From: Spirochaetales bacterium | Lineage (GTDB): Bacteria; Spirochaetota; Spirochaetia; JC444; Marispirochaetaceae | Assembly: GCA_016935695.1 (NCBI GenBank) | Contig: JAFGQL010000064.1 | Coordinates: 1-64,000 of the forward strand | Length of the DNA: 64,000 nucleotides | Reading direction: 5' to 3' | Part shown: one piece after another, positions 13,603-47,144 of the stretch | Position numbering within the stretch: position 1 is the stretch's first letter | Layout: the number at the start of each line of letters is the position of its first letter | Made by a program: the position numbers and the translations under genes | The notes under the pieces: generated by a model | Seen by the model: only the letters and a program-made list of their open reading frames with translations | Database searches by the model: none | What the model was told of the DNA's origin: nothing

Positions 13603-13628
13603 AAACCGCCGGAAACGGCGGTTTTTTT
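13603..13628 (+). terminator. Rho-independent terminator, probably shared by convergent gap and pbpC
   Basis: AAACCGCCG-GAAA-CGGCGGTTT followed by a T run, directly after the gap stop. Confidence 0.85.
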
Positions 13629-16047: not shown

Positions 16048-19000
16048 ACTGTACGGGAATCCGGAAGCTGCCCTTGTTGACGGCGTTCACCGGGAACACA
16101 AAGTCGGTTACAGAACTGCCGGCGCTGCCGTAGAGTACGAGCCGGTCCTCTCGTACGTCAATGTACTCAGGGCGGAAGCTGCCCTTCGTGCTGCCCCGCA
16201 GCTGTGCTGCATCAAGTTCCAGACCCGCCGGAAGCAGGTTCACCACGGCTATGTTGGTGACAGTTTCGTTTTTGAGGGAGCGCAGCCGCAGCCGTATGAA
16301 GAGCGTATCACCAAGGACAGCCCTTTCGACCTTTTCTCCCTTGCTGTTTTCGATCTGCATCCCGATCTCCAGGTTGCTGTTGACCGCTTTCGTTGGTGGG
16401 ACGGTATCAAAACCGGCCTGGACAACCTGGTAATACAGAGGCGATGTGTCCCGGTTCCGCAGATCAAGGGAAACCGCCTCCGGCGAGATATCAGTTTTTG
16501 GAAATTTGCCTTCCGGAAGGGTGAGGGCGTTTTGGGTTTTGTCCCGCATGTTTTCATATATTTCGATAGCGCTGCCAGCCGGTTCGGAAACAGCCCCGGA
16601 ATATGCGTCGAGGGCAAGGATCGCGAAGGAGGCGTCAATGGTAGTGGGTGGGACGCTGCTGATATGTGCAGCAAGCCCCTCCAGAAGCCGGGCCGAAACG
16701 TCGGGCAGCACCTGGGGGAAATGCCTGGCCGTGAGGTAGAGAACCCCTGCGTCCTTTAGAAAGTCTGAGTAGAAATCCCATGTGTCCAGGGCTTTTTTCT
16801 GTTCTTTTGCCAGGTCCCTGATGATCCGTGATCCTTCTCTCATATCCTGCATCAGGCCGTAGGACGCTGCTATATACCCCGCGGCTATGTCGGTTTTCCA
16901 CTCAGCCGACGCTTTTTCCAGACCGTCCTGGATTTTCGTGATATAGGCAGTGGTGATGATCTGGTTTCTGGTCAGTATATATGCCGCGTATGCCTGCAGC
17001 CGTAATGCGGCCAGACTCGATTCCTTTTCCCTGCAGATATTGGTAAGGGCGTTCAATCCTCTTTCAAGAAGTACCGGTGGAACGGGGTACGCGCGGTCTT
17101 TGGCTTCGGTCACGAAATGCATGCCCCAGATGGTAATGAAATCACTGGTGGTTGAATTCGCGGCCCACACCCCAATGTTACCGTCCCGGTTTTGCCTGGA
17201 CAGCAACACATTGAACACATACTCTACTTTCTTGCCTGCCTCAGTATCGGAAATACCGAAGCCGTTGGTATCTCTTAACAGCAGATAGGGAAACGAAGCG
17301 CTGATGATCTGCTCACTGCATCCGTAGGGGTAGTCATCGAGCCAGGATGTCAGTCCCTTTGCAATGCTCAACGGAAGCCTGGACGCAGTAAATTCACGTT
17401 TTCTGTATTCCTCGAACATGGTGCGTTCAACCTGGATGGTATCTCTTTCTTTTCGTAGGACGCCGGTCGTAACTTCGTTCCGGTAAGGGACCACCGGCCG
17501 CAGGCTGATGCCAACCGTCCGCTGTACGGTTTCACCACCGCCTTTGACAGTGAATACCATTTCACCGGATCCGGGTACGCCGCCAGCCTGTACCGTGAAG
17601 TTGAAGTTCGCATCGGAGCGTTCATCAATCTCTGCTTTCTGAATGGCCTGTTCCACGGTGAAATGGGAGGATGTTCTGAGGCTTACCTCTACAGGCAGTT
17701 TCTCGCCTGATGCGTCTTTTACGTTTGTGACCAGCAGGCTTATCTGGAAACTGTCGCCCGGTGTGGCAAAAAGGGGCACATTGGGCGAGAGGACGAAGGG
17801 GTTCCGGACTACTGCGGGAGTTTCCGTCACACCGATGCGGTCGGCAGAAACGGCAAGAGACATTATTCGTAAGGTGCCGTCAAAATAATCCGGCACATCA
17901 ATGTTCCATGTGCCGGGAGTCCCGTCGGTATCCATGATACCGGACCAGAAAACCACAGGTTTTTCCCGCTTGCGTTTAAAGGGATTCAAGTTCTTCGCAA
18001 TCGCGTCAAACCCTGCGCCTCCTCCCATGGCAGCCATGGATTCGAGTACAGAGAACTCCGGCAGAATGAGGTCGAGTATCTGCGAGGTCCGGACCTCCAG
18101 GGCGTGCTTCTTGAAAAAATGTGACAGCGGATCAGGAGTCGAGTATTTCGAAACCTGGAGTATTCCTTCGTCGACGGCGAACAGCAGAAGTTTTGCCGGT
18201 TGTTGAGTCTCGTAGTCAACCTTCAGGCTGGTCCCCGATCTGGAAATGTCCGGTACCGAAAGACTGACCGGGATCATACGGTTGTCCTTGCTGACCGAAA
18301 AAGGCGCGACTCCGTAACTTAACGGACTCATGAATACTGCCCTTGATCCGACATCGCGGATGAAGGACACGTTTACGTAACCGTTGCCCTCCAGCTCTTT
18401 CGGCACCCTGATTTTCTGCACACTTGCGGTGCTTTGGGCGGAAAACCATGTATAGGCGTAGACTTTTTCTTTTTCTATGGTGATAAGGCCTGACCCGGTA
18501 TAGGGTGCCTTTATGAACACTTCGATTTCTTCTCCCGGATCGAAATCGGTTTTGTTAAGCTTTATTTCCAGCTCAGCGGTTTTATCCAGACTTCTTGTCA
18601 CGTTTTCCTGACCGATTATGGAATAGCTGAATTTCCCCAGGGTTTCACCACTTTGGTTTTTAAGGGCGAACCTGTAGTCTCCCGGGGTATCCGTCGGGAT
18701 ACTCCATTCAAGACCCTTTTGGGGAATTGTCAGTGTTCCTCTTGCGTGCGGGCTTTCCTTTTCCACTGATTCATAATCGTAGGTGCCGTTAGGCTGTTTT
18801 GTCAGGACTGATACGTGATCTATCCTGGTAATTTCATAGTCAAGCCGGTCCTTCGCTATCTGTTTCAGCTCAGGGTCAATGGCGATGAGGGACACTTTTC
18901 TTTCTGTGTTCCGGTTTATGTAGGAAAGGTCCCCGTTCGGCTTGATGCCCACCAGGTACTCCAGGGGAGACACCAGCACTCTGGATTCGGCATGAACACT

Positions 19001-21766
19001 TCTTCCGCTGTCCTTCTCAAAGCCGTCAGCCATGAAACGGACAAAATAGGTAGCCGCATCGAATCTGTTCAGTCCCAGATTGAATTCCGCCCGGCCCTCA
19101 CTGTCGGTCAGAGCGTCCGGGAGTTCTTCGTTGTAGCTTTTTCCCGATGCCAGGGGATCGTTGAATAGATAATCACGGTATTTCCGGAACCACATGGTTC
19201 CCGGTGAGAGGGACAAAGAAGCCTTTATTTTATTCCCGGAGGCGGCAAACCCCGCCAGGTTCCGGAGGGTAACCTGTCCCTTCAGGTCCTTTGGTTGTAC
19301 CCACCCAGTATTCCCGGAGACACCCAGGTCCGCGTTTATCAAAAGCTTGTCCGGGATGAATTCCTCCACTTTGAGGGTGACCGAGCCCAGGACCCGGTCT
19401 CTCCTGTCATTTCTCATTTTATGAAGATTCACCTGGTAGGTGCCCGTAGGCGAGGTGTCAGCGGTGGTGAACGAGTATTCTTCGAACCCATGGGAACGGG
19501 CGGCGAAAGCGCGGCTGGCTATTTCGACACCTCTTGGGTCCGTTACCGTTAATTCCATGGGAGTGCCGGAGAAGGATGAAGTCCAGTCGGCGGTTTTAAT
19601 GACAGCGCCGATGTTCACTTTATCTCCGGGGCGGTAAATACCGCGGTCCGAGAAAAGATATGCGTTCAGTTCCTTGGGGTCGGAGAGCCCATGTACCCCC
19701 GAGGTATCGAAATCTGAATAATCCAGATAACGACCCCGCCCTGTTACCGGCAGAAAGGTCAGGTCATTCATGTCCTGTACCAGGTAGGCAACAGGGGATT
19801 TCTCGTTGCGCAATCCGGCAAAAGACGGGAATTCACAGTGTCCGTCGGTATCGGTAAATGCCGACAGGACAGGCAGTCCGTTTTTTCCGATGATTTCTAC
19901 TCTGGCATTGGTTACCGGCCGTCCCGATGCAACCGACTGGACAAAGACCTGATGGCTGCCCCTTTGTTCGTCCTTCACAAGGAGCCCGAGGTCGCTGACG
20001 ATGAGCAGCCGCTGTTCCCTGGAAGAGTGGATGCTGCCGCTTGCCGGGTTCCATTTAGACAGTTCTATCAGGAACAGACCTTTCTGGCCGCCGGCGCCGC
20101 TTTTCAGGTAGTGGCCCACGTCGATAGAGAAGTAATTCGGGTCCTCTGGTGCGGCGTTCGAGAGTTCCCGTTTTTCTGTGAAAATTTCTGAAATATTATG
20201 TTCGTTAAACTGGTAATTGTTGAACTGGAAATTGGTCAGAACACCGTTGGACTGGCTTATAAGGTGCTGGACCTGGTTGTTGAGCACACGGGCGACACGG
20301 ATGTACACACCAGATATTCCCTGGCTGATGACCGACACCTTCTGTTCTCCGCGGCTGCTCAATAATATACCTTCCTGCATGATCTGGAGAAGTTTTGGGT
20401 AGGAACCGATCTGCAGAATACCGGTGTATTCTTTCGAGAGACTGTAGCCGCCGTAAAATGGCATTCCCTTCTTTATGCGTACATATACGTAGGAACCGAC
20501 GGCTTCCTTCATGCCGAAGCTGTTCAAGGAAACGTATTCCCGTTCTGTTGGTTTTGGTTCAAGCTGTATTCTTTTACCTGCTTTAAGGTCTTCCGGTCCG
20601 ACAACCGCCGGATCGTTCCACCTCATGTTCTTTATTGCTTTCATGCCCGGAACTTCCGGCTTGTCTTTAGGCAATACCCATGCTTCCATATGGCCGGCGA
20701 GGGCCTCTGGCGAGGTATCTCCTTTTGTTTCCACAACAAGAAGCTGTTCCAGGGAATAGTCTTCCCGGCGCAAGGTTGTCTGCCGGACCGATCTGATGGA
20801 GATGAAGCTGGTAAGTCCCGGTACGGTTACCGTCCGGGTTAGCTCTTTCCGCGATCCACCGCCCTTTAACGAAGACTCAATTCCCGACCGGAGTTTCAGT
20901 TTCATTGTCACGTCTTCGTCGGGAATCGGCAGGGCTTCCGAGAGGATATAGGCGGTACCGAAGAACTCATCATAATTAATGGTGAAGCCGTAGGCTTTTT
21001 GAGTGAAGGAAGTTTCGTCTTTTGACATCTGGTCTACAGTGAGCTCAATGTTGTTTTCCAGCGACTGAGGATTGACCGGATGGGAAAAACGGACTGTCGC
21101 GGTAACCTGCTTCAGATCAGGGTCTGTGGGATCTATATGAAAATCGAGGTTCGCGATAGAAGGAGAGAACTCTTCGGTCTTGAAAGAGCCTTTCATGCTG
21201 CGCAGAATCGTACTAGGGCTGACCAGTTCTTTCACGATGGTGTAGCTGAACTCTGTGCCTGCCGGCCAGTCTCCTCCAGGCATAAACACAAGGGTGCTGT
21301 CCCCTTCCCATTTCCAGGTACCTTCGATCTCCGGTTTCAGTTCGATGCCGGCAGTTATTGTCTGATCAATCATGGTGATAGGTGCTGCTGATCTGCTGAA
21401 TTCCAGACGAAGCGGATTGACCTGGGCATGTGGACGCAAGGGGGTCGGTCTCGGCGGCCTTACGCGTATGGTGGTGTATACGGTTTCAGCTTTCTGACGA
21501 ACCAGCAGATAGCCGATTCCCCCTGCGGTAATAACACCCAGAACAATCAGAATGGTGATCAGTATCCGTTTTCTGCCCCTTTTCTTGTTTGTTTCTGGCG
21601 GCTGGCTTTCTGTTTCTGTCTCCGCTTCTTTGCGTACAGCTTTTACCATATGATCATGCCATTTTTCGGCTGCTGCCGTGACAAAACCGGGGGGTGTGTA
21701 CTGAATTTTTCCAAAGATGAACGAAAGAATTGATCGAATTTTCGTGAGAAATACTTTTTTGGGCAT
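15980..21766 (-). CDS. Alpha-2-macroglobulin family protein (membrane-anchored)
   Basis: ORF 15980..21793. The start at 21766 (MPKKVFL) has an SD GAGGAA. One TM helix (RILITILIVLGVITAGGIGYLLV), MG-type repeats, FSDRGIYRPGDKVNIGAVIKT, thioester-type motif YPYGCSEQ, and location upstream of pbpC. Confidence 0.92.
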   Translation of the reverse strand: MPKKVFLTKIRSILSFIFGKIQYTPPGFVTAAAEKWHDHMVKAVRKEAETETESQPPETNKKRGRKRILITILIVLGVITAGGIGYLLVRQKAETVYTTIRVRPPRPTPLRPHAQVNPLRLEFSRSAAPITMIDQTITAGIELKPEIEGTWKWEGDSTLVFMPGGDWPAGTEFSYTIVKELVSPSTILRSMKGSFKTEEFSPSIANLDFHIDPTDPDLKQVTATVRFSHPVNPQSLENNIELTVDQMSKDETSFTQKAYGFTINYDEFFGTAYILSEALPIPDEDVTMKLKLRSGIESSLKGGGSRKELTRTVTVPGLTSFISIRSVRQTTLRREDYSLEQLLVVETKGDTSPEALAGHMEAWVLPKDKPEVPGMKAIKNMRWNDPAVVGPEDLKAGKRIQLEPKPTEREYVSLNSFGMKEAVGSYVYVRIKKGMPFYGGYSLSKEYTGILQIGSYPKLLQIMQEGILLSSRGEQKVSVISQGISGVYIRVARVLNNQVQHLISQSNGVLTNFQFNNYQFNEHNISEIFTEKRELSNAAPEDPNYFSIDVGHYLKSGAGGQKGLFLIELSKWNPASGSIHSSREQRLLIVSDLGLLVKDEQRGSHQVFVQSVASGRPVTNARVEIIGKNGLPVLSAFTDTDGHCEFPSFAGLRNEKSPVAYLVQDMNDLTFLPVTGRGRYLDYSDFDTSGVHGLSDPKELNAYLFSDRGIYRPGDKVNIGAVIKTADWTSSFSGTPMELTVTDPRGVEIASRAFAARSHGFEEYSFTTADTSPTGTYQVNLHKMRNDRRDRVLGSVTLKVEEFIPDKLLINADLGVSGNTGWVQPKDLKGQVTLRNLAGFAASGNKIKASLSLSPGTMWFRKYRDYLFNDPLASGKSYNEELPDALTDSEGRAEFNLGLNRFDAATYFVRFMADGFEKDSGRSVHAESRVLVSPLEYLVGIKPNGDLSYINRNTERKVSLIAIDPELKQIAKDRLDYEITRIDHVSVLTKQPNGTYDYESVEKESPHARGTLTIPQKGLEWSIPTDTPGDYRFALKNQSGETLGKFSYSIIGQENVTRSLDKTAELEIKLNKTDFDPGEEIEVFIKAPYTGSGLITIEKEKVYAYTWFSAQSTASVQKIRVPKELEGNGYVNVSFIRDVGSRAVFMSPLSYGVAPFSVSKDNRMIPVSLSVPDISRSGTSLKVDYETQQPAKLLLFAVDEGILQVSKYSTPDPLSHFFKKHALEVRTSQILDLILPEFSVLESMAAMGGGAGFDAIAKNLNPFKRKREKPVVFWSGIMDTDGTPGTWNIDVPDYFDGTLRIMSLAVSADRIGVTETPAVVRNPFVLSPNVPLFATPGDSFQISLLVTNVKDASGEKLPVEVSLRTSSHFTVEQAIQKAEIDERSDANFNFTVQAGGVPGSGEMVFTVKGGGETVQRTVGISLRPVVPYRNEVTTGVLRKERDTIQVERTMFEEYRKREFTASRLPLSIAKGLTSWLDDYPYGCSEQIISASFPYLLLRDTNGFGISDTEAGKKVEYVFNVLLSRQNRDGNIGVWAANSTTSDFITIWGMHFVTEAKDRAYPVPPVLLERGLNALTNICREKESSLAALRLQAYAAYILTRNQIITTAYITKIQDGLEKASAEWKTDIAAGYIAASYGLMQDMREGSRIIRDLAKEQKKALDTWDFYSDFLKDAGVLYLTARHFPQVLPDVSARLLEGLAAHISSVPPTTIDASFAILALDAYSGAVSEPAGSAIEIYENMRDKTQNALTLPEGKFPKTDISPEAVSLDLRNRDTSPLYYQVVQAGFDTVPPTKAVNSNLEIGMQIENSKGEKVERAVLGDTLFIRLRLRSLKNETVTNIAVVNLLPAGLELDAAQLRGSTKGSFRPEYIDVREDRLVLYGSAGSSVTDFVFPVNAVNKGSFRIPVQYAEGMYNPDYYSIFPGETFVIE

Positions 21767-21940
21767 GGCGGTTCCTCGATTGAATTTTTTCATATCCTAA
21801 ACCACCGCCGGTAAATTCGCAAATCCTTTTATTGGTGCCCATGCGGCATCTCTCAGGGATTTCTCTGCAACATGCCTGCAGAAGCCCTTTGGATAAAATA
21901 ATGGAAAATTCTCTTGCTTTTTTTCCCCTGTTATGCATAA

Positions 21941-34892: not shown

Positions 34893-36776
34893 TTACCGCG
34901 GATCCTGCTGGTCTTCGGTCCGGGGTTTCCCATGTTGCTCATGCCGTGCCGTACATGCTGCCAGTTCATCTTTGAGGTAGGCGGTTCTGAGGGCGACAAG
35001 CTCTTCCAGATGGTCCTTATGGAGTTTCAGCTCGGTTTCAGATTCCTTATGTGATGCCAGAATCAGGGCTCCTTCGAGGGCGCTTGCAATTTTCGCGCGT
35101 AAAACCTCGTAAATGAGCCGCCGGTGGGATCCGCCTTCAAAAATCACAAAACCGATTTGATGCGACCTGAAGAACAGGGACTCAACGGTAAGGGACTTTT
35201 TCTGTGCCTGGGTGAAGGCGGCCGCGGGCAGAAGCTCTCCGGTTTTGTACCGTATACCGCCTTTTCCTATGTCGATGCGGCCCTGTTCGTTGAAGGCAAG
35301 TATCAGCCGTGACCATGTGGGAGGCGGGTCCGGGAACTCCCAAAACTCTGGGGTTTCATACAGGGACAGATAACAGCCGGTAATGCCCAGCAAAGGCAGC
35401 ATTTCCGCCATGAGGTCCATCAGCCGCGGGATGTCGAAAGTGGAGATAAAGGCATTGCCTATGCGGTGAAGAACAATGACCTCTCTGTTTTGACGGAAAA
35501 TGTTCAGCGCAAAGGCGTTCTGTGACTGAAGTGAAATGTATTCCCGTGTTTGATGAAGAAGGGTTTCAAGCAGGGCTTTTTCCTGTGTGGAATCGAGCCG
35601 GGGTATGAACCAGTTCCTCATTGTTGAAACCGCTTTGTTGAGAATACCGGGGTGGGTGTTTGCGGCGATGAGCTTTCTGGTAAGCGTGTCTATGCGGGAA
35701 TGGAATCTTCCGGCATCGGGGTCGGCTACAGCTGAAACGAAAATGTCGCAGAACTCCTCTTCCCAGGAGTCCTCTCCCGGACGACCGGAATTCAGGTTGA
35801 GATTTTTTAAATCATCAATTATTTCTTCTCTGTGCCGGGTCTGTATGGAGAGGATGGGTCCTGTCTCCGACAGGATTTCCTGAGGCATGGACTCGTTCAG
35901 CATTTCATTACAGCCGCAGGAATGCCGAATTTTCAGTTCTGCCTGCAGAACCGTGTTGTTGTCACTTTTGTGTCCGGCAATATCCTCCAGCAGCATCCGG
36001 ACCGCTGTGGTCCCCATTTCCTTTAAGGGCTGCCGAATGGTGGTGAGGGGAGGCACGATATGGCGGGCCTGGTGAATATCATCGAACCCAACAATGGCCA
36101 TATCATAGGGTATGATGATGTTCCTTCGGTTCAGCTCGTCTATCGCGCCCAGTGCCATTTCGTCGTTTGCTGCCATAATCGCGTCTATGGGTATTTTCCT
36201 GTCATCCAGAAACTCGCGGACGGCTTCAATGCCCGAAGGCACGAAAAACGACCCCTGGGCGACCAGTTCCGGCCTGAAGGGAATGTCATGCTCTTTCAGC
36301 GCAGACAGATAAGCGGTATAGCGGTCGGCTGATTCTTCGCTGTTCTGAGGGCCGCGTATGAGGGCTATGTTTCTGTACCCGTGATGTTCGATCAGATGAT
36401 TCATGGCCGTTTTAACGGCCTGTTTATTATCAATAACGACACTTGGAATGCCGGGGACAGGACCAATTCCCACGGTGGGGACTTTATGAAGCAGATGTTT
36501 CAGCATTGTCCTGCTTTCCTGGTCCAGAAAATGACCGGTTGTAGCCGAGATAATGAGGCCGTCCAGGTAATCGGGGTTGACGTTGGATACAAGAATATTC
36601 CGCTGGATTTCGTAGGGGTCATGAGGTGAATGGGCAAAGAATCCGCAGGTGATGCGAATCAGGTTTACCCCTTGCTTGTCACAGGCTTCCTGGATCCCTG
36701 AAAGCATTTCCGCCAGGTATCCCGAGTCTATTTCCCAGCTGCTTTCGGTTGCAATGCCTATGGTTATGTTATTCAT
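34893..36776 (-). CDS. LacI-type substrate-binding domain protein lacking an N-terminal HTH, with C-terminal sensor-like and coiled-coil region
   Basis: 627 aa; MNNITIGIATESSWEIDSGYLAEMLSGIQEACDKQGV..., IDAIMAANDEMALGAIDELNRRNIIIPYDMAIVGFDDIHQARHIVPPLTTIRQPLKEMG; C-terminus LKLHKDHLEELVALRTAYLKDEL. Confidence 0.8.
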   Translation of the reverse strand: MNNITIGIATESSWEIDSGYLAEMLSGIQEACDKQGVNLIRITCGFFAHSPHDPYEIQRNILVSNVNPDYLDGLIISATTGHFLDQESRTMLKHLLHKVPTVGIGPVPGIPSVVIDNKQAVKTAMNHLIEHHGYRNIALIRGPQNSEESADRYTAYLSALKEHDIPFRPELVAQGSFFVPSGIEAVREFLDDRKIPIDAIMAANDEMALGAIDELNRRNIIIPYDMAIVGFDDIHQARHIVPPLTTIRQPLKEMGTTAVRMLLEDIAGHKSDNNTVLQAELKIRHSCGCNEMLNESMPQEILSETGPILSIQTRHREEIIDDLKNLNLNSGRPGEDSWEEEFCDIFVSAVADPDAGRFHSRIDTLTRKLIAANTHPGILNKAVSTMRNWFIPRLDSTQEKALLETLLHQTREYISLQSQNAFALNIFRQNREVIVLHRIGNAFISTFDIPRLMDLMAEMLPLLGITGCYLSLYETPEFWEFPDPPPTWSRLILAFNEQGRIDIGKGGIRYKTGELLPAAAFTQAQKKSLTVESLFFRSHQIGFVIFEGGSHRRLIYEVLRAKIASALEGALILASHKESETELKLHKDHLEELVALRTAYLKDELAACTARHEQHGKPRTEDQQDPR

Positions 36777-36867: not shown

Positions 36868-36903
36868 TAAAAAAACGCCCCGGCGTATATGAGGTCGGGG
36901 CGT
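36868..36903 (-). terminator. Rho-independent terminator of the giant lipoprotein gene
   Basis: Minus strand ACGCCCCG-(13 nt)-CGGGGCGT followed by TTTTTT; starts about 24 nt after the stop at 36927. Confidence 0.85.
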
Positions 36904-36926: not shown

Positions 36927-39900
36927 TTAATAATCGTCCATACGGGCTATGAGATTTATGAAATGGACTTCACCGGTATAGGGCCGTGTGGCCATGCGGG
37001 GAAAGCCGTAATGGAGGAACCTACCCTGGCGTACCACCGGAAAGTAATGGGGGTTAGACTCATAAGAGTCTCTACAGTATATGTACCCGTAAGGCGGGTT
37101 TTGGTCGGTCGACAGGTATACAGATATCCTCCTGTCTGTTATGGAACCGCTTCCTCCTAAGGGATCGTCGCTATACCCGTATTGGGTGCTTGCGTTATGG
37201 TTGGGGTTTGCGCCGCCGGGGAATGTTGTGCTGGATAGCGGACTATTCCAGGTTGAGTTTCCAGAGGTCCAGGTAATCATGAAGATATCCTCGGTGGAAA
37301 AGGTGCCGGAGGGTCCGGCAAAGCCGATGTTGGCCGGAGGCTGGGTATATTCAGTACCGGTGGGGTAATTCCAGGAATCCGTCCAGTACTTGTTCACATA
37401 ATATAGGAAGTTAGACCCGTAATAACCCATGGCGACAACTCCGGATGCGCCTGAGGCCGTAGCAGGCGCCGCGTTCCCCGTCGTGTTTGATTTATGTACA
37501 ATGTTGCGGAGTTTATTTGAGTTGGAGTAGGGGGCGAAGGACGGTGTAATGATAATCGGGTCCCCGTAAATAATGTAGCGGTCGTCAGTCTCGGTCCAGT
37601 CGGCGGAAATCAATGAATCCGGCACCATTGTTACCGTCCAGTAGGGCATCGTACCGGATATTGACGTGGAGATGTTCGGAAAATCATGGTCTTCGAGCAG
37701 GTTTTTCATTGACTGTGCTTTCGCCTGGTCTTCCGAATCCGTACCGTCGTAAATAATGGTGATATTGGAACTCCAGGAAACCGCCGCCTCGCTGTACACA
37801 TCGCTGGAGCCTCCTGCGCTGGTGTTGTTCGGGAGTAAGTACAGGTAATACAGGGTGCCTTGCGCCATGCCGGTAAGTGTAATACTGTTTCCGGAACTCA
37901 CAGAGGTTTTGTAGGTTTTGGTGCCGGTCGGGCTTGTGGCGTAATAAGCGTAGTAGTTGAGGGTGGTGCCCGATTCGTTGCCGTAGGTGTCGAAGGTCAG
38001 AGTAAGGGTTCCATTACTGGTTTTTCCTTTTGTTGCGCCGCGCAGGACAGGGGCCCCGAAAAAGATGTAATCAACCCTTTCTATGAAGTGACTTGAGTCG
38101 TTTTCATAGTAACCGGCTGCGTCGGTGTACTGAACGCTTACTTTTTTGACGCCATATCCGGCAGACATGTTCCACGCACGGGAAGATGTGTAGCTGTACC
38201 AGCCACTCCATGCCCCGTTGCCGTTTCTCAAACGCATGAAATTCGCGCCGCTTACATCGCTGTTAACGGTGACTGTCTGGTTGAGGGTGCTTTTGCCGGA
38301 ATTATTCAGGGACATGCTGGTTACTGCCGGCACCACGGTATCAAGGATGATGTAATCGCTTATTTGCGCACTTTCGTTGCCGGCGGCGTCTCTCAGCTGG
38401 GCTTCTACGTATTTGTACCCTTCACCGGATGCCAGGTTCCAGGACTTGGCCTGAGTGGGATTTGCATACCAGCCGCTCCAGGTACCGCCGGAGTTCTTGA
38501 AACGGATATGGCTTGGGCTTCCCGAAGCGCTTGCCTGAATAATGACGCTCAGATCGGTTGTATAGGTATCGCCATTGTCGATGGTGAATGAGTCGAAAGT
38601 CGGTGCGACTGTATCTATGGTGATTGTCTGGACGGATTCTGTCGACCAGTTGCCCGCTTCGTCTCTTTCCTGGACACCAAGGTAGGGCGTTGCGCCGTTG
38701 CTCTGGGCCGTGGTAAGGGTAAAGCTTGTGGAAGTGGTTTCCACCCAGGCTCCACCGTTAAGCCGGTAACGGTAAACCTCTATTCCGCCTCCGTTAGTGA
38801 ACCATTCCCAGCTGGGAGTCGTGTCATTCGTAGTCGACGGAGAGTCAAAATCGACCATATCCGGCGGTGTTGCGTCTATAACAAATTCATCGGAGGCAAT
38901 TTCACCTGTCCACTCGGAACCATTAATCTGTTCTTCTATATAAAAGTGATGTAGTCCATCTGCGCTGCCGTTGGTGCTGAATATGTAGGTGAAGGTCTGA
39001 GTAGCTTCTGATACCGTAGTCCATACTCCGGAATCTATCCGGTAACGGTAGGCTGTCGGCGCGCCTGTACCGCTGGACCAGTCCCATGTGATGCTGGTTT
39101 GGGACGCGTTTCTCAAATATGTGCCCTGGCGTATGAGGTTGGGCGGTGTTATGGGCGCAGTACTGTCTACCCATATCTCAAGCGCACCGGATACCGACCA
39201 GTTTCCGGCCTCGTCCCGTTCCTGAACTTCCAATGTGTTATGGGAGTTGTCGGCTAAGCCAGAAGCGGGTTCGTATGATGTCGCGGTGGTTTCACTTGAC
39301 CAGGAGCCACCGTTTAAGCGGTACCTAAACACGCCTATGCCGCCGCCTCCCGGTATCCAGGACCATACCGGCGTTGTATCACGTGTATGATCGAATCCTG
39401 ATAAACTGGGTGCATTTGGCGCCGTTGTATCCCATTGGACGAAGGCGTATCCGGTTGATATATTGCCGGCATTGTCGGCTACGGAAAGCATCAGGGCATA
39501 TAAGCCGTCGGTGCTCGCGCTGATTGTCGGGTTCAGAGAAGCTGCGCCGGACCCGCCGAATGTAATGACGCCGGGGCCTTCAGCCATAGTCCAGGCATAG
39601 GTGGCAGCATTAATGCCGCTGTCATGTTCCGGATCGAAACTGCCGTCCTCGTTATGGTCATCAATTATGCTTGAGGAGAAATCTATTACTACCGCTTCCC
39701 TTGTAAGGATATACGTTCCATCAGCGACAATGGTCGGCGCTACCGTATCTATGAACAGATCGCAGCTGACTGCCTGGGTTCTGTTTCCGGCCACATCCCA
39801 TCCAGTTATAAACAGGCGGGAGAGCCCGTCATTGCTGGCGGGTCCGCTGGGCGGGGGAGCAGTGACGACAGGGGTATTGTTACGTATATACGGTGTCGTT

Positions 39901-42527
39901 CCCATATAAGACGATGGATCGTTCCAGTCGTATGCTTCCCAGTTCGGGGCCGCGTTTAAACCGTTAGTAAATATGATATAAAAGTCGGCGCCGGTGCTGG
40001 GATCCCACTTAACGTAAGGCTGGGCAGTTGTTGCATAATAAGTTGTTTGGGTCCCGTTGTCTTCGTACAGGAGAACGTTCGTGATATCCGAGGGACTCAC
40101 CGTATCCCAGATGAACGGCACAGTGCTGAAATTCTCGTTTCCTGCATTATCGGTTATGGTGACAAGAAGTTCGTATTCCCCGTCCATATCTGCACTGATA
40201 TACGGATACGGAACTCTTGTATTTATGTCTTCTTCAGTGCCGGCAGGATCGTCGTAGAATGTAGCCTGCCCCACGGTTTCTCCCTGTACCGGTCCGGATA
40301 ATTGTTCCCATTCATACTGGGCCACGCCGCTTGCCGGTCCTGGGCCGGTTGCGGGGTCAGGATCGGTATAAGTAATTGATTGCTGTGCTAATGAGTTCGT
40401 GTTGAGTATTTGACTCACGTCTAGGCTTACCTCAGGCTGGGTATAATCAAGGATAATTGTATCCGATGCGGTGGCCGAGTTATGACCAATTTTATCTTTC
40501 ACCTGAGAGTAAATGGTATACGCGCCTTCGCCTTCTGTCAGCGTGAAGTCTGTAAGTACGGGAGCCCAGTCCTGCCAGGACCTTGCTCCATCCGCCAGTC
40601 CGGATTCGTCGACGGTGGATATCCATACCTGGCTTATTCCCGAATGGTCGTCTTTTGCGTTAAGGCTGATAGTGATTATGCCGTCCTGGTTTTTGGAATA
40701 GGATTTCCCTCCCTCAAAGATAAACGGAGTCGTTGCGTTGTAATAGGGGTTATCCAGATCCAGAATGACCTGCAATCTCCCCGGTGTTTCAGTAACATTC
40801 TGGGCAGCGTCCATGAAGCGGTAATATATGTTGTATTTTCCGGATATGTTGGTGAGGGTCCAGACAATGCTTTCGGGCGCTGTCGAGTAATCCATGTACT
40901 CTATGCCGTCTGCGGACAATGAGTCGACGACATATGATTCCCACACGGCGTCCTGTTCAAAGAAAGGCCGGCCTGCGGTATTGTCACCCCAAATTTTTAC
41001 GCCGTATATGTTGTTAAACCTATCTTCTGCGAATATCTGAAGCGCAAGATTATTATTGGCGGAATAGTTGACTTCCGGGTTGTCGATGTCGAGAGCGATC
41101 ATACCCTCCGGAGGGTCGGTATCCACCGCGGTGTTGGTGGAAAAGTAATAACTGTAATTTGATCCCATCTGGTTTCCGGCTTCGTCCTCGATACTTGCGC
41201 CGATGAAAACGGTATAGTCGGTGTTTTGGTTCAGTTCAAGGGGCTGGAAATCAGCGTCAAGGAACGACACACTCTTCTTGTCCAGGCTGAAGTCAAGCTT
41301 TGTATCCAGTGGAGTTACCCCTTCTGAAAGTATCATGTTGCCTGCGTCGAAACTCTCGGGACTTATGCGCTCGTTAAACACCACTTTAATCAGGCTGGTA
41401 TTCTGGGGAACCGTTGCAGATCTCCTGGGGAATGTAGCATCTTCATCAACCGATGGGGGCGTGAAATCGAGGGTGATGCTTCTTTCCTCAATGACCGATT
41501 CATTGCCGAGTACATCGTTCATCTGTACCTGTATATGCTGTTCCTGGTTCGCAGAGACTGACAATGGGTAATTGTTGAGATGTACGTTATTTGTGGTCAG
41601 GTCTATCCAATCTTTCCATTCTTCGCCGGCATTCCGTATGCGGTACTGGGCTACCCCGATCCCGCTGTCAAGACCTATGATGTCGATTGTAATTAATGAT
41701 TCGAGAGTTCCTTGGTTTCCGTTGTTTAATTCGAAGTAATCGATTGCGGGCCCCGAAGTGTCCAGATGGATGGATCCCGTGATTACCGCCGATTCATTTC
41801 CGGATCCGTCTCTTACCTTTATATACAGAGTTTTCTCGCCGTCTGACGGGCTCAGGGTGTACTCGATTGTATTTGTAGTCTGGTTATATACAGCCCATTC
41901 CGCGCCAAGGAAACCGGGAAGTTCTGCAATTATGGAGTGAGTCACTCCCCGTTCATCAAATACCGCGAGGGTGATGTCTATAGCCTGGGTTCCGGTCCAG
42001 AATTCATCTGCAGTATTGTCGGCATCGGTGTCAACCCCCGCGAACACAGTACTTTGAAATGCAAGGCCCGTAAGGCTGGGCACGGTGGTGTCCGGGGACA
42101 AGCCGGTGGTAAACGACCACGTAAAAGCAGAGGTAAGGGAATTACCGTCGGTGTCCTTGACCCCTTTGGTGACTTGAATGGAGTATGTAGTGCTATAGGT
42201 AAGGGTTCTGCTCAGAGTATAGGTGATGGACTCCGCGGACACTGTAAAGCTGCCGGGCTCAACGACTCCAGCCTCGTTGGTGATGATAATGGAGCCTGTG
42301 TTCACGGTAGAGGCGTCCACGTTCTTAGTGAATATGATGGTGATGTTGCTGGTGTTTACCGGTACATCAACGGCCGATATACTCGGATACACCTGGGCGA
42401 TTTCCGGGGGAGTGACCGCGATTTCCACTTCTTCGTGTATTTTGGTTATAAGAGGGTTTTTACAGGTTGCGGTTGAGCCGGCGATTAGGGCCAGTATGAT
42501 CAGGTTTCCTATGAGTTTTTTGTTCAT
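36927..42527 (-). CDS. Giant surface-type lipoprotein with N-terminal SbsA Ig-like domains and many repeated Ig-like modules
   Basis: 1866 aa; lipobox-like IAGSTATC; PPEIAQVYPSISAVDVPVNTSNITIIFTKNVDASTVNTGSIIITN (SbsA-like); repeated blocks such as DEAGNWS...DTVAP. Confidence 0.8.
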   Translation of the reverse strand: MNKKLIGNLIILALIAGSTATCKNPLITKIHEEVEIAVTPPEIAQVYPSISAVDVPVNTSNITIIFTKNVDASTVNTGSIIITNEAGVVEPGSFTVSAESITYTLSRTLTYSTTYSIQVTKGVKDTDGNSLTSAFTWSFTTGLSPDTTVPSLTGLAFQSTVFAGVDTDADNTADEFWTGTQAIDITLAVFDERGVTHSIIAELPGFLGAEWAVYNQTTNTIEYTLSPSDGEKTLYIKVRDGSGNESAVITGSIHLDTSGPAIDYFELNNGNQGTLESLITIDIIGLDSGIGVAQYRIRNAGEEWKDWIDLTTNNVHLNNYPLSVSANQEQHIQVQMNDVLGNESVIEERSITLDFTPPSVDEDATFPRRSATVPQNTSLIKVVFNERISPESFDAGNMILSEGVTPLDTKLDFSLDKKSVSFLDADFQPLELNQNTDYTVFIGASIEDEAGNQMGSNYSYYFSTNTAVDTDPPEGMIALDIDNPEVNYSANNNLALQIFAEDRFNNIYGVKIWGDNTAGRPFFEQDAVWESYVVDSLSADGIEYMDYSTAPESIVWTLTNISGKYNIYYRFMDAAQNVTETPGRLQVILDLDNPYYNATTPFIFEGGKSYSKNQDGIITISLNAKDDHSGISQVWISTVDESGLADGARSWQDWAPVLTDFTLTEGEGAYTIYSQVKDKIGHNSATASDTIILDYTQPEVSLDVSQILNTNSLAQQSITYTDPDPATGPGPASGVAQYEWEQLSGPVQGETVGQATFYDDPAGTEEDINTRVPYPYISADMDGEYELLVTITDNAGNENFSTVPFIWDTVSPSDITNVLLYEDNGTQTTYYATTAQPYVKWDPSTGADFYIIFTNGLNAAPNWEAYDWNDPSSYMGTTPYIRNNTPVVTAPPPSGPASNDGLSRLFITGWDVAGNRTQAVSCDLFIDTVAPTIVADGTYILTREAVVIDFSSSIIDDHNEDGSFDPEHDSGINAATYAWTMAEGPGVITFGGSGAASLNPTISASTDGLYALMLSVADNAGNISTGYAFVQWDTTAPNAPSLSGFDHTRDTTPVWSWIPGGGGIGVFRYRLNGGSWSSETTATSYEPASGLADNSHNTLEVQERDEAGNWSVSGALEIWVDSTAPITPPNLIRQGTYLRNASQTSITWDWSSGTGAPTAYRYRIDSGVWTTVSEATQTFTYIFSTNGSADGLHHFYIEEQINGSEWTGEIASDEFVIDATPPDMVDFDSPSTTNDTTPSWEWFTNGGGIEVYRYRLNGGAWVETTSTSFTLTTAQSNGATPYLGVQERDEAGNWSTESVQTITIDTVAPTFDSFTIDNGDTYTTDLSVIIQASASGSPSHIRFKNSGGTWSGWYANPTQAKSWNLASGEGYKYVEAQLRDAAGNESAQISDYIILDTVVPAVTSMSLNNSGKSTLNQTVTVNSDVSGANFMRLRNGNGAWSGWYSYTSSRAWNMSAGYGVKKVSVQYTDAAGYYENDSSHFIERVDYIFFGAPVLRGATKGKTSNGTLTLTFDTYGNESGTTLNYYAYYATSPTGTKTYKTSVSSGNSITLTGMAQGTLYYLYLLPNNTSAGGSSDVYSEAAVSWSSNITIIYDGTDSEDQAKAQSMKNLLEDHDFPNISTSISGTMPYWTVTMVPDSLISADWTETDDRYIIYGDPIIITPSFAPYSNSNKLRNIVHKSNTTGNAAPATASGASGVVAMGYYGSNFLYYVNKYWTDSWNYPTGTEYTQPPANIGFAGPSGTFSTEDIFMITWTSGNSTWNSPLSSTTFPGGANPNHNASTQYGYSDDPLGGSGSITDRRISVYLSTDQNPPYGYIYCRDSYESNPHYFPVVRQGRFLHYGFPRMATRPYTGEVHFINLIARMDDY

Positions 42528-42533
42528 GCGGGT

Positions 42534-44648
42534 CTACTCCGTTTCCTCGGCTTCCAGCGAGTCGCTGAAAAAGGTTTTGCCTTTATCCTGGGCGCTCGCT
42601 GCCCGCACCACGATGCTGCTTTTAGTCGAGCTTAAGTAGGCGTAGTTTGCGGCGATGTCCGGCGACAAAAGGGCGAGTTTGGCATAAGCGTTCCTGGCCG
42701 CCTCGTATTCTTCCAGTTCGAACTGGGTGCGGGCGAGACCCGCCAGGACAAGCGGATTGTCAGGCACGGCGGATTCGGCCTTTTTATACCAGGAGAGGGC
42801 CTTTACATACTCTTTTTGCAGAAAATAAATATTACCCAGGTTGAACATAGGTTTCGGATCCTTGCTGTTCAGACGGTTTGCTTTCACGAACATTTCCTCC
42901 GCCTGATCGAATATTCCGTATCTGGCGTACAGGATGCCGAAACTGTTGTAGGTGCTGACGCTTTCTCCCTTTTGGCGCAGCCGGTCCTTATAATAATCGA
43001 CGCGTTCTTCTATTTGTTCAGATACGAAGGCATTGAGGGCGGAGGAGTAGCGTTCGATGATGTTTTCCGGCGACGGAAAAAGAAGGGACAGACTTGAACC
43101 TGAAAACCCTACCGGTTCGAAAGTATCCCAGGCGTCGTGTATTGCATAGAACCCTGCAACTTCCTGTTCACTGGCATCCCGCCACTGTTTGGCACCTGTC
43201 TTATAAGCCTTGATAAACCCGTCCTGGATAAGGGTAATCTCTACAGGGGCCCAGGCCCTGCCGTCTATGAATATGAAATCAGCTGTATTGGCGAATTCCC
43301 GTTTGGCTTCCTCTTCACTCAGACCGAGAGAAAAGGCCATGAAAATATGCCCGGGGACTGTGACAAAAGCCGTTTCTATGCTCACGGATTCCAACAGGGC
43401 TGCGAACAGAATGGACAGATCGTCGCAGTCGCCTGCCCGGTATATAAGAGACTGGGAAGGAAACTGAAGATAATCCAGAAAAAGTTCGTCCTGGGAGGCT
43501 TCCACATAGGAGGACTGGGGGTCTATCACGTAATTCATTCCGTACAGCCGCAGAGCTTCAAAAACACCCATTGCGATTCTGAAATTCAGGTTCAGAGGGT
43601 TTTGCCCCATATCCCGTATAAGCCCCGCGGTATTTTTTGAGAACACAAGAACTGTAGGGTCTCTTGGCGTCACAAAGGATGCGGCCTTACGGTCGTCATC
43701 CCAGGTCATGCTGTTTCTGTCTAAAACCCGCACAGTATGGGGGATGGTTGTGGTGAAACGCTTTCCTAAATAGGAGTACTCGACGATTACCTGGCCGGAA
43801 ATTTTTGTGGATTCTGTAAGATTGAGGATGTTGCCGTTGAAAAGGGCCTTGAGGTCAACTTGCGCGCTTTCGTTTCTCACCAGTTTTTCGATCGTCTGGC
43901 AGAGCATCGGTTGTTCCATATATTCGTTGATGTCAAAAAAGACCTCCACGTTTTGTATGCTGCCTTTTTCCGTGTTTTTGATGGTGACTGTACCGAAGGG
44001 GTTTTGTTCGTAATAGCTGTAAAACACAGGGAAAATGGGGGTTGTTGAGATTCCTTCTGTCTTCAGTTTCTGGCGGCCCGAATCGGGGTTGAACCGGATG
44101 ACACCGCCTATCCAGGCGTTTACACCCTGGTATAGATCGGTAAAGCGGTTGTTTGCCTCATCGTAGCCTATATGATAGGCATAACCAGCTCCTCCTGTAA
44201 CCGCAAAGCCGGACGAGAGGTCCCAGACTGCCCCTGCCCGTCCTCCCGCATAGGGGTTTAAAGCCCAATCACCGGATTCATAGGCACCAAAGGTCAGGCC
44301 GGTGTCGATGCCGACCTGGAGACTCAGGCGATCCATGACACGGAGGTCGCTGCCGAGTCCTCCTCCTACAGAAGTCAGGGTCAAGGTCTGGGCCTGGCTT
44401 GGATGGAGGCCGAAGCGGCCGTTGGCCTCGACGTACAGGAATGGCAGCGACGGGAAGATATACTGCCCGGACAGCTGTATGCCGCCGCCTAAGAGGTAGG
44501 CCGCATCACCGTGAAGCACGGCGCTGTTGCTTCCTATGGGTATGTCGGCTGACGGCCGTATGTGAATGGCGAAGTCCTCGGAAATTTGCGCGGTGGCGGC
44601 TGCCATACCAAGAAGCAGTATGGCCGGGATCAGGTATGAACGTTTCAT
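42534..44648 (-). CDS. Exported protein: N-terminal beta-barrel-like region, transglutaminase-like domain, TPR repeats
   Basis: 704 aa; signal peptide; barrel-like strands; YRAGDCDDLSILFAALLESVSIETAFVTVPGHIFMAF; DPKPMFNLGNIYFLQKEYVKALSWYKKAE TPRs; 6 bp from the next gene. Confidence 0.75.
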   Translation of the reverse strand: MKRSYLIPAILLLGMAAATAQISEDFAIHIRPSADIPIGSNSAVLHGDAAYLLGGGIQLSGQYIFPSLPFLYVEANGRFGLHPSQAQTLTLTSVGGGLGSDLRVMDRLSLQVGIDTGLTFGAYESGDWALNPYAGGRAGAVWDLSSGFAVTGGAGYAYHIGYDEANNRFTDLYQGVNAWIGGVIRFNPDSGRQKLKTEGISTTPIFPVFYSYYEQNPFGTVTIKNTEKGSIQNVEVFFDINEYMEQPMLCQTIEKLVRNESAQVDLKALFNGNILNLTESTKISGQVIVEYSYLGKRFTTTIPHTVRVLDRNSMTWDDDRKAASFVTPRDPTVLVFSKNTAGLIRDMGQNPLNLNFRIAMGVFEALRLYGMNYVIDPQSSYVEASQDELFLDYLQFPSQSLIYRAGDCDDLSILFAALLESVSIETAFVTVPGHIFMAFSLGLSEEEAKREFANTADFIFIDGRAWAPVEITLIQDGFIKAYKTGAKQWRDASEQEVAGFYAIHDAWDTFEPVGFSGSSLSLLFPSPENIIERYSSALNAFVSEQIEERVDYYKDRLRQKGESVSTYNSFGILYARYGIFDQAEEMFVKANRLNSKDPKPMFNLGNIYFLQKEYVKALSWYKKAESAVPDNPLVLAGLARTQFELEEYEAARNAYAKLALLSPDIAANYAYLSSTKSSIVVRAASAQDKGKTFFSDSLEAEETE

Positions 44649-44777: not shown

Positions 44778-47144
44778 TCAGGCCGACAAGGCGTCTATGA
44801 AACCCTGCATGCTGTAGTGGCGGATAATGTGCTCCCGGGCCGAATGGCGCATGTTCCGGTATGCTTCGGGATCCTTTTTCATGAGGGCGTAGATGTCAGA
44901 AAGGGCCTGGGCCCATTGCTCAGCTGTATGTTCCTCTATGACTATGCCGCCGCCGCTGGCGCCGACGATTTCCTGGGGGCCTCCCTGGGCGTCGACTATT
45001 GCGGGAAGGCCGCAGCTCATGGCTTCGGCCACGACTCTTCCGAAGGTGTCGGTCTGGCTGGGAAACACGAATATGTCGCTTCCGCCGTAAATAAGGGGCA
45101 TTGTGGCGTGGTCTATCCGTCCTAAAAAGCGCACCCGGTCATTATTCCGGAATTTTTCCCGCAAGGTATCCTCTTCCGGTCCGTGGCCGGCGATAAGCAG
45201 GTAATGGTCTGTGTCTTCGTCTTTGGCTGCAGCCTCAAGAAACGCCTCAATGGCCAGGTCTATCCCTTTGTCTGCGGAAACACGGCCGGCGAAGAGACTG
45301 TAGACCCCTTCGGGGAGACTGTAGAGGTTACGGAGGGTATCCCTGGCGTTGTCCAGGGGCTGGAACAGCCCTGTGTCGATCCCGCGGGTGAATAACCCGA
45401 TATTATCTCCGCGGTATCCCCTGTTTTTGAGCACTGCCGCGTATTCCTTTGTATTGACCAGTGTTTTTGTGCAGTTGGCGTAAAACCACTTCAGATATCC
45501 GTCTATATAGGTGGTCATGGTAATGTCGTTGATAATCTCCTTGGCCTGGAGAGCGCCGTCGGTATGGTAGATTCCCACTGACGGAATGTTCAGTATCTTT
45601 GAGGCCGCCAGCCCAAGCAGGCCGATGGGGAGCGGTGTGGAGATGTAGATTTCGTCGGGATCGAAATCATTGATCATCTTGAGCGCTTTAAGAAAGGAAG
45701 GGATTTTAATGGTCAGCTTTTCATACTGAGGCATGGGAAAGGATTCGATTGCCGGTATATGCATGATGTTCGGCGGCAGGCTGTCGCTGTCTTCCTCGGG
45801 GCTGAAGGATGCGGCAATCTGTATGTTGCGTCTGGAGGTGTGGGATATCCAGGCGACTTCCTTCACCGTAATGGCGACGCCGTTCATTTCTGTGAGCGTA
45901 TCGGTAAACCAGAGAATACGCTTTTCCCGCTGGTGTTCTTGCTTGCCCGTCTGCTCATAGAGTTTTTTTACCAGATTGCGGTTATTGAACATGTGGGAAA
46001 GGGTGGAAATAAAGGGTATCGAAAGGAAAACGGCAGGCAGTATTGCAGCTATATTGCGGATCAGTTTGTCTATGTTGCCTTTTTTCAGGTTTTTTTGTAC
46101 CGACTCAATGAAATTGATCAGCACCCTGTCTACGAGTTTTGTGACCTGTTTGTAGAGAATGTCTAAACGGGCATCGGTTTCATGAAAGTCGATTTTTCGT
46201 GCTTCTTCTATCAGGTCTAAAATGATGCGGTGCAGACTGTTATTTTTGCTGGATTTTTTCAGGCGCTTAAGGGTGTATTTTTTCTTGAATCCCTTTTCTT
46301 CCTCGTTGAACAGGCTGTCCAGAACGATGGAAACGGGAATAGGTACTGTCGAATGCTGAGTGTGGTGTATGAAATCAAAGGCAATTTTGTATATGGCAAA
46401 AGCCATGGAATGGAAGTCGTGATGTCTTCCGCCAGTTCTGGTGGATTTTCGCCGGATTGCCTGGATGAATTCCTCCTTGGTCGAGGCTTCAGTTTCAGTA
46501 TAGGTTTTCGCGATAAAGATGCCGGCGTGGTCATCGCTTCCCGCGGTATACCCTTTCAGCCATGGTGTATCGCTCATGGGTTTGATCCCGTGTTTTTGAA
46601 TGAGTCTGTCGGTATCGTCTTTTGTAAGGGAGGAAAGGAACTGTTCCCAGTCGCTGTTGTTCCGTTTGTTCCGGCCCCCGTTGATGGTTTCAAAAATATC
46701 AAAAAGAAGAATGAGTTTTTCCAGATGGTCGGGCCCCACCGCCCCGTTGACCGAATAGGTGGCATGGGCAACCGAGTAGGCGATATTCGTATCCCGCACG
46801 TAATCCCTGAACTTATAAATATCGCTTCGGAGTTCCTGGATAATCTCAAACTGTTCTTCGGTAATGTCAAACAGGAGGATATGGACCTTGCACCCGTCGC
46901 CGGGGAAATATACGGTAGATTCAACCGATACAAAACAGTCATCAGGATGGGCTTTTGTCAGTTCCAGAGCTCCCGTGATGCTGTTGTGATCGCAGATGGT
47001 TACGAAACTCATTCCCCGCTTTTTTGCTGTGTCATATATGAACTCGGGTTCGGTATAGGATTCCGAGGTTCCCATTCTTTGCAGGAACCACTCCGAAGGA
47101 TGATCGGAATATTTCGAATGGACATGCAAATCCGTCTTTGCCAT
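44778..47144 (-). CDS. PHP-domain / GT4 glycosyltransferase fusion protein
   Basis: 788 aa; MAKTDLHVHSKYSDHPSEWF...SFVTICDHNSITGA (PHP) then SLFAGRVSADKGIDLAIEAFLEAA...GSDIFVFPSQTDTFGRVVAEAMSCGLPAIVDAQGGPQEIV (GT4). Confidence 0.88.
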   Translation of the reverse strand: MAKTDLHVHSKYSDHPSEWFLQRMGTSESYTEPEFIYDTAKKRGMSFVTICDHNSITGALELTKAHPDDCFVSVESTVYFPGDGCKVHILLFDITEEQFEIIQELRSDIYKFRDYVRDTNIAYSVAHATYSVNGAVGPDHLEKLILLFDIFETINGGRNKRNNSDWEQFLSSLTKDDTDRLIQKHGIKPMSDTPWLKGYTAGSDDHAGIFIAKTYTETEASTKEEFIQAIRRKSTRTGGRHHDFHSMAFAIYKIAFDFIHHTQHSTVPIPVSIVLDSLFNEEEKGFKKKYTLKRLKKSSKNNSLHRIILDLIEEARKIDFHETDARLDILYKQVTKLVDRVLINFIESVQKNLKKGNIDKLIRNIAAILPAVFLSIPFISTLSHMFNNRNLVKKLYEQTGKQEHQREKRILWFTDTLTEMNGVAITVKEVAWISHTSRRNIQIAASFSPEEDSDSLPPNIMHIPAIESFPMPQYEKLTIKIPSFLKALKMINDFDPDEIYISTPLPIGLLGLAASKILNIPSVGIYHTDGALQAKEIINDITMTTYIDGYLKWFYANCTKTLVNTKEYAAVLKNRGYRGDNIGLFTRGIDTGLFQPLDNARDTLRNLYSLPEGVYSLFAGRVSADKGIDLAIEAFLEAAAKDEDTDHYLLIAGHGPEEDTLREKFRNNDRVRFLGRIDHATMPLIYGGSDIFVFPSQTDTFGRVVAEAMSCGLPAIVDAQGGPQEIVGASGGGIVIEEHTAEQWAQALSDIYALMKKDPEAYRNMRHSAREHIIRHYSMQGFIDALSA

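Follow-up and report, generated by a model that had tools for sequence, protein, structure and literature searches.

The choice and placement of surface lipoproteins in spirochaetes other than Borrelia is largely an open question. In Borrelia itself, sorting information lies in the residues just after the lipidated cysteine, and tethers and an LptD-homologue pathway are described (PMC11784454). Two further systems bear on what follows: LapG (BTLCP, DUF920), a periplasmic transglutaminase-like cysteine protease, cuts the N-terminus of the large surface adhesin LapA (PMC3032545), and Slam, or type XI secretion (T11SS), places a protein with a barrel and tetratricopeptide repeats (TPRs) beside variable lipoprotein or exoprotein cargo (PMC9090332, PMC5449769, PMC12282271). 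Here we analyse a two-gene locus at positions 36,927 to 44,648 of a 64,000-nucleotide stretch of DNA (the window) from a Spirochaetales bacterium (GenBank assembly GCA_016935695.1, contig JAFGQL010000064.1, positions 1 to 64,000). Gene 1 encodes a putative outer-membrane cysteine enzyme and gene 2 a giant lipoprotein, and together they look like a dedicated outer-membrane device for handling a surface protein encoded next door, apparently undescribed. We rate as about evenly balanced the chance that this locus is a copy of a modular system of spirochaetes in which such an enzyme acts on a tagged lipoprotein at its tag.

Both genes lie on the minus strand, as do all features of the locus given below, and the draft genome (82% complete, 2.98 Mb) has one copy of each. 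Gene 1 (42534..44648) encodes 704 residues and has a clear ribosome-binding site, GGAGGGAG, while gene 2 (36927..42527) follows 6 bp downstream and encodes an Ig-repeat lipoprotein of 1866 residues. An intrinsic terminator after gene 2 (36869..36903) has a perfect 8-bp GC-rich stem and a T7 run (-15.1 kcal/mol; z -3.17); its loop of 13 nt is above the loop limit of a standard terminator scan, which therefore missed it. An earlier reading of this DNA from its letters and open reading frames (the sequence-only reading) had already proposed two genes 6 bp apart that end in a strong terminator, and the frames, spacing and terminator all bear it out.

The pairing of the two genes extends far beyond this genome. 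In a survey of the class Spirochaetia, 129 of 395 sampled genomes had a match, often with several copies of the cassette, and the labels of the named homologue records read spirochaete or Treponema with two exceptions; the sampled spirochaete genomes of small size (1.0-1.5 Mb) showed no such enzyme-lipoprotein system. When a uniform scan was applied to the 98 distinct (de-duplicated) barrel forms that bear the catalytic triad described below and have sequence beyond the gene, a lipoprotein start was found at the gene end in 82, against 74 of 808 control genes. Correction by hand added two loci whose partner the pattern had missed (L030 and L064) and three with a tagged lipoprotein directly upstream (L090, L138 and L140), and left out three with another type of barrel (L240, L242 and L243), which brings the 8-strand form to 87 of 95 with a partner. 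The forms still without a scored partner are L074/L134, L097, L109, L110, L114, L115, L139 and L196. Among loci from named genomes, 59 of 88 enzyme open reading frames were scored as followed by a lipoprotein; one of the 59 was scored in error, since in L165 it is a penicillin-amidase-type protein that stands behind a form without a barrel, and most of the other 29 are contig ends, enzyme pairs (see below) or cases in which the partner was seen on inspection, downstream in L125, L185 and L146 and upstream in L138 and L140. Start and stop of the two genes recurrently overlap by 4-26 bp, which suggests translational coupling. Moreover, genome G003 (97% complete), of the same genus as G001 and G002, lacks both cassette genes, and the genes that flank the cassette in G001 (by eye, an HD-GYP-like protein and a histidine kinase-like protein) are adjacent and syntenic there, so that gain or loss affected both genes at once. 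The sequence-only reading would have fallen had the genes not been co-conserved in other genomes; instead, the pairing is strongly co-conserved (87 of 95 against a background of 9%).

What the partners share is short. Protein 2 has a type II signal peptide with the lipobox AGSTAT^CKNPL, and an outer-membrane or surface location is predicted for it. The lipidated Cys22, invariant across 40 partners, opens an N-terminal tag, CKNPLITKIHEEVEIAV (residues 22-40; 42408..42464), which recurs in non-homologous partners as a stretch like C-x-N-P-L-L-D-x-I-x-x-E-V-x-x-A. Across the family, partners vary in length between about 160 and over 2900 residues and the Pfam content includes Big_5, Big_13, PKD, FG-GAP_2, List_Bact repeats, InlB B-repeats, Lcl_C, DUF1573 and fn3, among others. 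Homology beyond the first 45 residues is found in 90% of partner pairs above 60% enzyme identity, but in only 16-21% of pairs at 30-40%. With whole sequence clusters held out, the tag score distinguishes partners from the loci's other lipoproteins with an area under the curve of 0.79, and the five top-scoring "control" lipoproteins (L138, L180, L090, L063 and L140) are all encoded in enzyme loci themselves, no fewer than three as immediate neighbours of the enzyme gene. The tag is also amphipathic (z about 1.0 versus 0.1). Since the passengers are mostly unrelated and the tag recurs, the enzyme probably engages the tag or the lipid-proximal end and not the Ig modules. The tag has no conserved Gln/Lys pair and thus lends no support to classical Gln-Lys crosslinking.

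In the window, protein 2 is indeed the giant lipoprotein of Ig-like modules that had been read from the letters, as its lipobox and its Big_5 and Big_13 domains attest; the Ig-like lipoprotein stands as the partner here, but Ig modules are not the feature that partners share, the short N-terminal tag being what recurs. Its first Big_5 domain spans residues 38-141 (42105..42416; PF13205, E 2.1e-29 for the protein). In the subfamily to which this locus belongs (enzyme identity 44-64%), partners are about 1750-2000 residues long, and alignment of gene 2 with ten orthologues (11 sequences in all) shows a conserved C-terminal region of about 280 residues (residues ~1586-1866; 36930..37772) that has no Pfam match. 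A glutamine-amidotransferase-like fold, suspected there by eye, was unsupported (model pLDDT 58; Foldseek returned fibronectin-type domains only).

Protein 1 was modelled with AlphaFold2 from an alignment of 53 sequences (mean predicted local distance difference test, pLDDT, 89.6), and the model runs in order through a barrel, an Ig-like domain, a transglutaminase-like domain, a long helix, TPRs to about residue 668 and a low-confidence tail. The protein begins with a signal peptide (residues ~1-21; 44586..44648; MKRSYLIPAILLLGMAAATAQ), modelled as a helix over residues 3-20. The 8-strand outer-membrane β-barrel (residues 26-185; 44094..44573) is matched in Foldseek by NspA (1p4t, TMt 0.75) and OmpA, and OMP_b-brl is found in 4 of 53 homologues. 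Next come an Ig-like β-sandwich (residues 195-308; 43725..44066), conserved together with the following domain in the N-terminus of ProA, the transglutaminase/papain-fold domain (residues 312-512, approximately; 43113..43715), and TPRs (residues 564-661; 42666..42959; Pfam TPR_2 and TPR_19, and the model). Transglut_core (PF01841) is sub-threshold in protein 1 itself (E = 0.062) and reaches E <= 0.01 in 43 of 53 family members; TPR_Slam matches five of the 53 weakly, below threshold. A profile search of the PDB with the whole family returned TPR proteins, and one with the Ig-like and transglutaminase core gave non-significant matches only, the best being a transglutaminase-like protein (E 0.26). 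By fold and triad, the core falls in the transglutaminase-like superfamily (PF01841 clan), and acyl-transfer or peptidase activity is predicted for it. OmpA-type topology would place the enzyme and TPR part in the periplasm. The signal peptide, barrel-like strands, transglutaminase-like core and TPRs of the sequence-only reading are thus all present in the model and in the Pfam and Foldseek results.

The putative catalytic triad consists of Cys408 (AGDCDDLS; codon 43425..43427), His434 (GHIFMAF; 43347..43349) and Glu470 (WAPVEITL; 43239..43241), each an invariant column. In the model a helix begins at C408, H434 belongs to a β-strand, and E470 follows the strand after that. Of 114 homologues that could be aligned, 106 have an intact triad and eight have lost all three residues; in another alignment, of 77 homologues, 67 have C, H and E and 10 have none of them. 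The degenerate core on alignment that would have spoken against the sequence-only reading is therefore not what we find. That the triad varies as a unit (intact in 106 of 106 when the Cys is present) argues for catalysis. Most copies without it come from Treponema-like loci, where such an inactive paralogue (A) immediately precedes an active one (B). In five of these (L106, L108, L112, L113 and L111) the order is A, then B, then a giant tagged lipoprotein. B there carries a C-terminal Pro/Thr/Glu-rich extension ending in a transmembrane-like segment, and such loci are possibly a trans-envelope version of the system with three genes.

The C-terminal tail of protein 1 (42537..42623) carries a motif, RA[SA]xA...W[DE]E, that is highly conserved by column (R in 52 of 53 members, A in 51, W in 52; here F694 replaces the W). 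Of 101 homologues with an intact triad 97 have it, as does one of eight without the triad, and this suggests, as far as sequence conservation goes, a role for the tail in the catalytic cycle. Because triad loss traces to a single clade, however, the association of tail and triad counts as one event and not as independent ones.

Compared with LapG and LapA, the likeness lies in a transglutaminase-fold Cys/His/acid enzyme of the periplasm and in the control, exerted close to the N-terminus, of a giant surface protein made of repeats, which for the present locus is a prediction. Protein 1 differs from LapG in being barrel-anchored, in having TPRs and an Ig-like domain, in its sequence family and in Glu as third residue, and its partner, unlike LapA, is a lipoprotein. 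The locus yielded no homologue of LapD, LapA or a type I secretion system; the CystProtLapG model is matched weakly by one of 27 cores (E 0.008) and not by the core of protein 1. Slam/T11SS is the nearest analogue in layout, with variable lipoprotein cargo adjacent in both cases, yet protein 1 has a small 8-strand barrel at the N-terminus and TPRs at the C-terminus where Slam has a C-terminal barrel preceded by TPRs, it gave no Slam barrel hit, and a Slam-like assignment leaves its additional, intact cysteine-enzyme domain unexplained. The type IX secretion system (T9SS) also uses a cysteine protease, PorU. Some relatives of protein 1 fuse the enzyme-TPR core to a PorV-family barrel beside exoproteins, two of which have FlgD_ig-like ends; protein 1 itself does not have a PorV-family barrel with cargo of the C-terminal-domain type, features limited to distant relatives (PorV in L240 and L242, FlgD_ig in L242 and L243), and here the cargo is an N-terminally tagged lipoprotein and the fold that of a transglutaminase, not a gingipain. 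The Borrelia tethers, for their part, come without a dedicated adjacent enzyme. By these membership tests no known family accommodates the system, and literature searches for the architecture found nothing matching.

The reading that we favour combines these observations as follows. The 8-strand barrel would anchor protein 1 in the outer membrane and leave its cysteine-enzyme and TPR domains in the periplasm, the TPRs being a probable docking surface. Protein 1 would engage the N-terminal tag next to the lipidated Cys of the co-translated lipoprotein. Catalysis at the tag, most likely a peptidase-type cleavage or an acyl transfer near the lipid anchor, would then mature, release or fix the variable passenger at the cell surface. 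With a periplasmic enzyme tethered by a barrel, a tag at the membrane face and a variable passenger, action at the tag or the lipid-proximal end is what one would expect, and the lack of a conserved Gln/Lys in the tag, along with the protease LapG as the closest functional analogue among well-studied enzymes, favours peptidase-type processing or acyl capture over Gln-Lys crosslinking. The earlier suggestion that protein 1 processes, anchors or crosslinks protein 2 is supported in part: the pairing is co-conserved and the core intact, protein 1 may act directly on protein 2, and classical crosslinking gains no support from the tag. Several points weigh against action at the tag. An 8-strand barrel offers no channel, and two genes in close linkage could serve one pathway without their products meeting as enzyme and substrate. 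The motif of the tag is weak and contains gaps, with 41 of 85 partners at 2 bits or less in the held-out test. Furthermore, lone enzymes occur (L097, L139 and L074), two loci are arranged convergently (L114 and L115), and L109 and L110, both in the complete genome G246, are enzyme pairs without any lipoprotein. These two loci (L109:209-4745 and L110:8508-12873) are inactive-active pairs whose active copies have an extra C-terminal domain; a LysM C-terminus, seen there by eye, was not confirmed by Pfam.

Export in the manner of Slam/T11SS, with protein 1 as a TPR and barrel chaperone that delivers the tagged lipoprotein while its enzyme fold is a binding platform or acts elsewhere, strikes us as unlikely, though it is the strongest rival. 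The genetic logic is the same, a TPR and barrel protein beside variable surface-lipoprotein cargo (PMC5449769, PMC12282271, PMC9090332), the weak TPR_Slam matches agree with it, and the transglutaminase-TPR core also occurs fused to a PorV-family barrel beside exoproteins; but the poreless barrel and the domain order and barrel type are unlike Slam, and so strict a triad points to catalysis. The same periplasmic enzyme could alternatively be the thing controlled, the lipoprotein being a regulator whose passenger senses or binds an outside ligand and whose tag switches the enzyme toward a substrate elsewhere, in the cell wall or among other envelope proteins. Passengers of ligand-binding type (Ig, FG-GAP, fn3), a conserved tail that tracks the triad as in a regulated enzyme, and the enzymes found without a partner would all fit, yet almost every enzyme of the commonest form, that with the 8-strand barrel, has a partner and the tail association reduces to the one clade already mentioned, so we regard regulation as improbable.

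Transglutaminase-type fixation, the anchoring or crosslinking branch of the sequence-only reading, in which protein 1 would link the lipoprotein covalently to peptidoglycan, to itself or to a neighbour, draws on the fold, the intact triad, the outer-membrane anchor and the long C-terminal extensions, with a transmembrane helix, of Treponema-type homologues. The absence of a conserved Gln/Lys from the tag, the frequency of peptidases among bacterial members of this fold (LapG, PMC3032545) and the weak contact of one core member with the LapG model make it quite improbable in our estimate. Mere hitchhiking of two neighbouring genes we reject as having almost no chance, given the neighbourhood controls (87 of 95 against 9%), the shared tag and the precise two-gene empty site in G003.

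Relatives in other contexts indicate how far the parts travel. Beyond the class Spirochaetia, within the same phylum, 8-strand forms (L237, L238, L239 and L246) have a downstream lipoprotein with a related tag; a FecR-like gene suspected upstream in L237-L239 is without Pfam support. Barrel-less forms headed by WD40 or TPR domains (L227-L236) have no tagged partner, nor is there a tagged neighbour beside long forms that lack a barrel, whether they begin with WD40, TPR or other domains. In L240 (2610-4982) and L242 (1725-3989), the core of Ig-like, transglutaminase and TPR domains stands behind a PorV-family barrel (NF033709, above cut-off), and L243 (4767-7043) is similarly arranged by a UPF0164 match; all three lie next to exoproteins, and in L242 and L243 the exoprotein adjoins upstream and ends in a FlgD_ig-like domain. 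These PorV-type fusions possibly link the enzyme to T9SS-like cargo handling.

The Ig-like and transglutaminase module reaches further still. In protein 1 it (43113-44066) shares homology with the first 300 residues of ProA, an anti-phage protein family. Each of the 27 cores compared with the ProA model (NF058533) matches it over residues of about 14-304 (best E 1.3e-17), so that the module is more widespread than the enzyme-lipoprotein system; protein 1 itself scores 48.8 bits over positions 14-304 of 1903, far below the cut-off of 1500 bits. ProA differs in its length of 1903 residues and in a remainder that is probably helicase-like, judging from the matches that control genomes, E. coli among them, gave; a literature search found no publication on it. 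A role in defence was considered from this match, and PADLOC gave no hit; a search of viral contigs found one weak relative.

The widest version of our proposal is a categorically new spirochaetal system, in which the enzyme would recognise a portable tag and sort, release or covalently fix arbitrary passengers, the RA[SA]...W[DE]E peptide would regulate it, and the core would serve PorV-type barrels elsewhere; taken as a whole we consider this doubtful, though worth stating. A tag with a dedicated enzyme, if borne out, would in any case be a testable rule of sorting or processing from which the surface repertoire of many uncultured spirochaetes could be predicted by sequence, an outer-membrane cysteine-enzyme system would be added beside LapG/LapA, Slam and T9SS, and that system would be tied to an anti-phage protein family through a common Ig-like and transglutaminase module.

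Other genes in the window deserve brief mention. At 13627-21793, a bacterial alpha-2-macroglobulin of 1937 residues overlaps a penicillin-binding protein 1C-type gene, a known pairing. The gene at 34893-36776 has a LacI-type sugar-binding domain from about residue 17 and some 330 extra C-terminal residues, and Pfam found no DNA-binding domain in it. Finally, at 44778-47144 an N-terminal PHP-type segment (a weak Pfam match) is fused to a GT4 glycosyltransferase.

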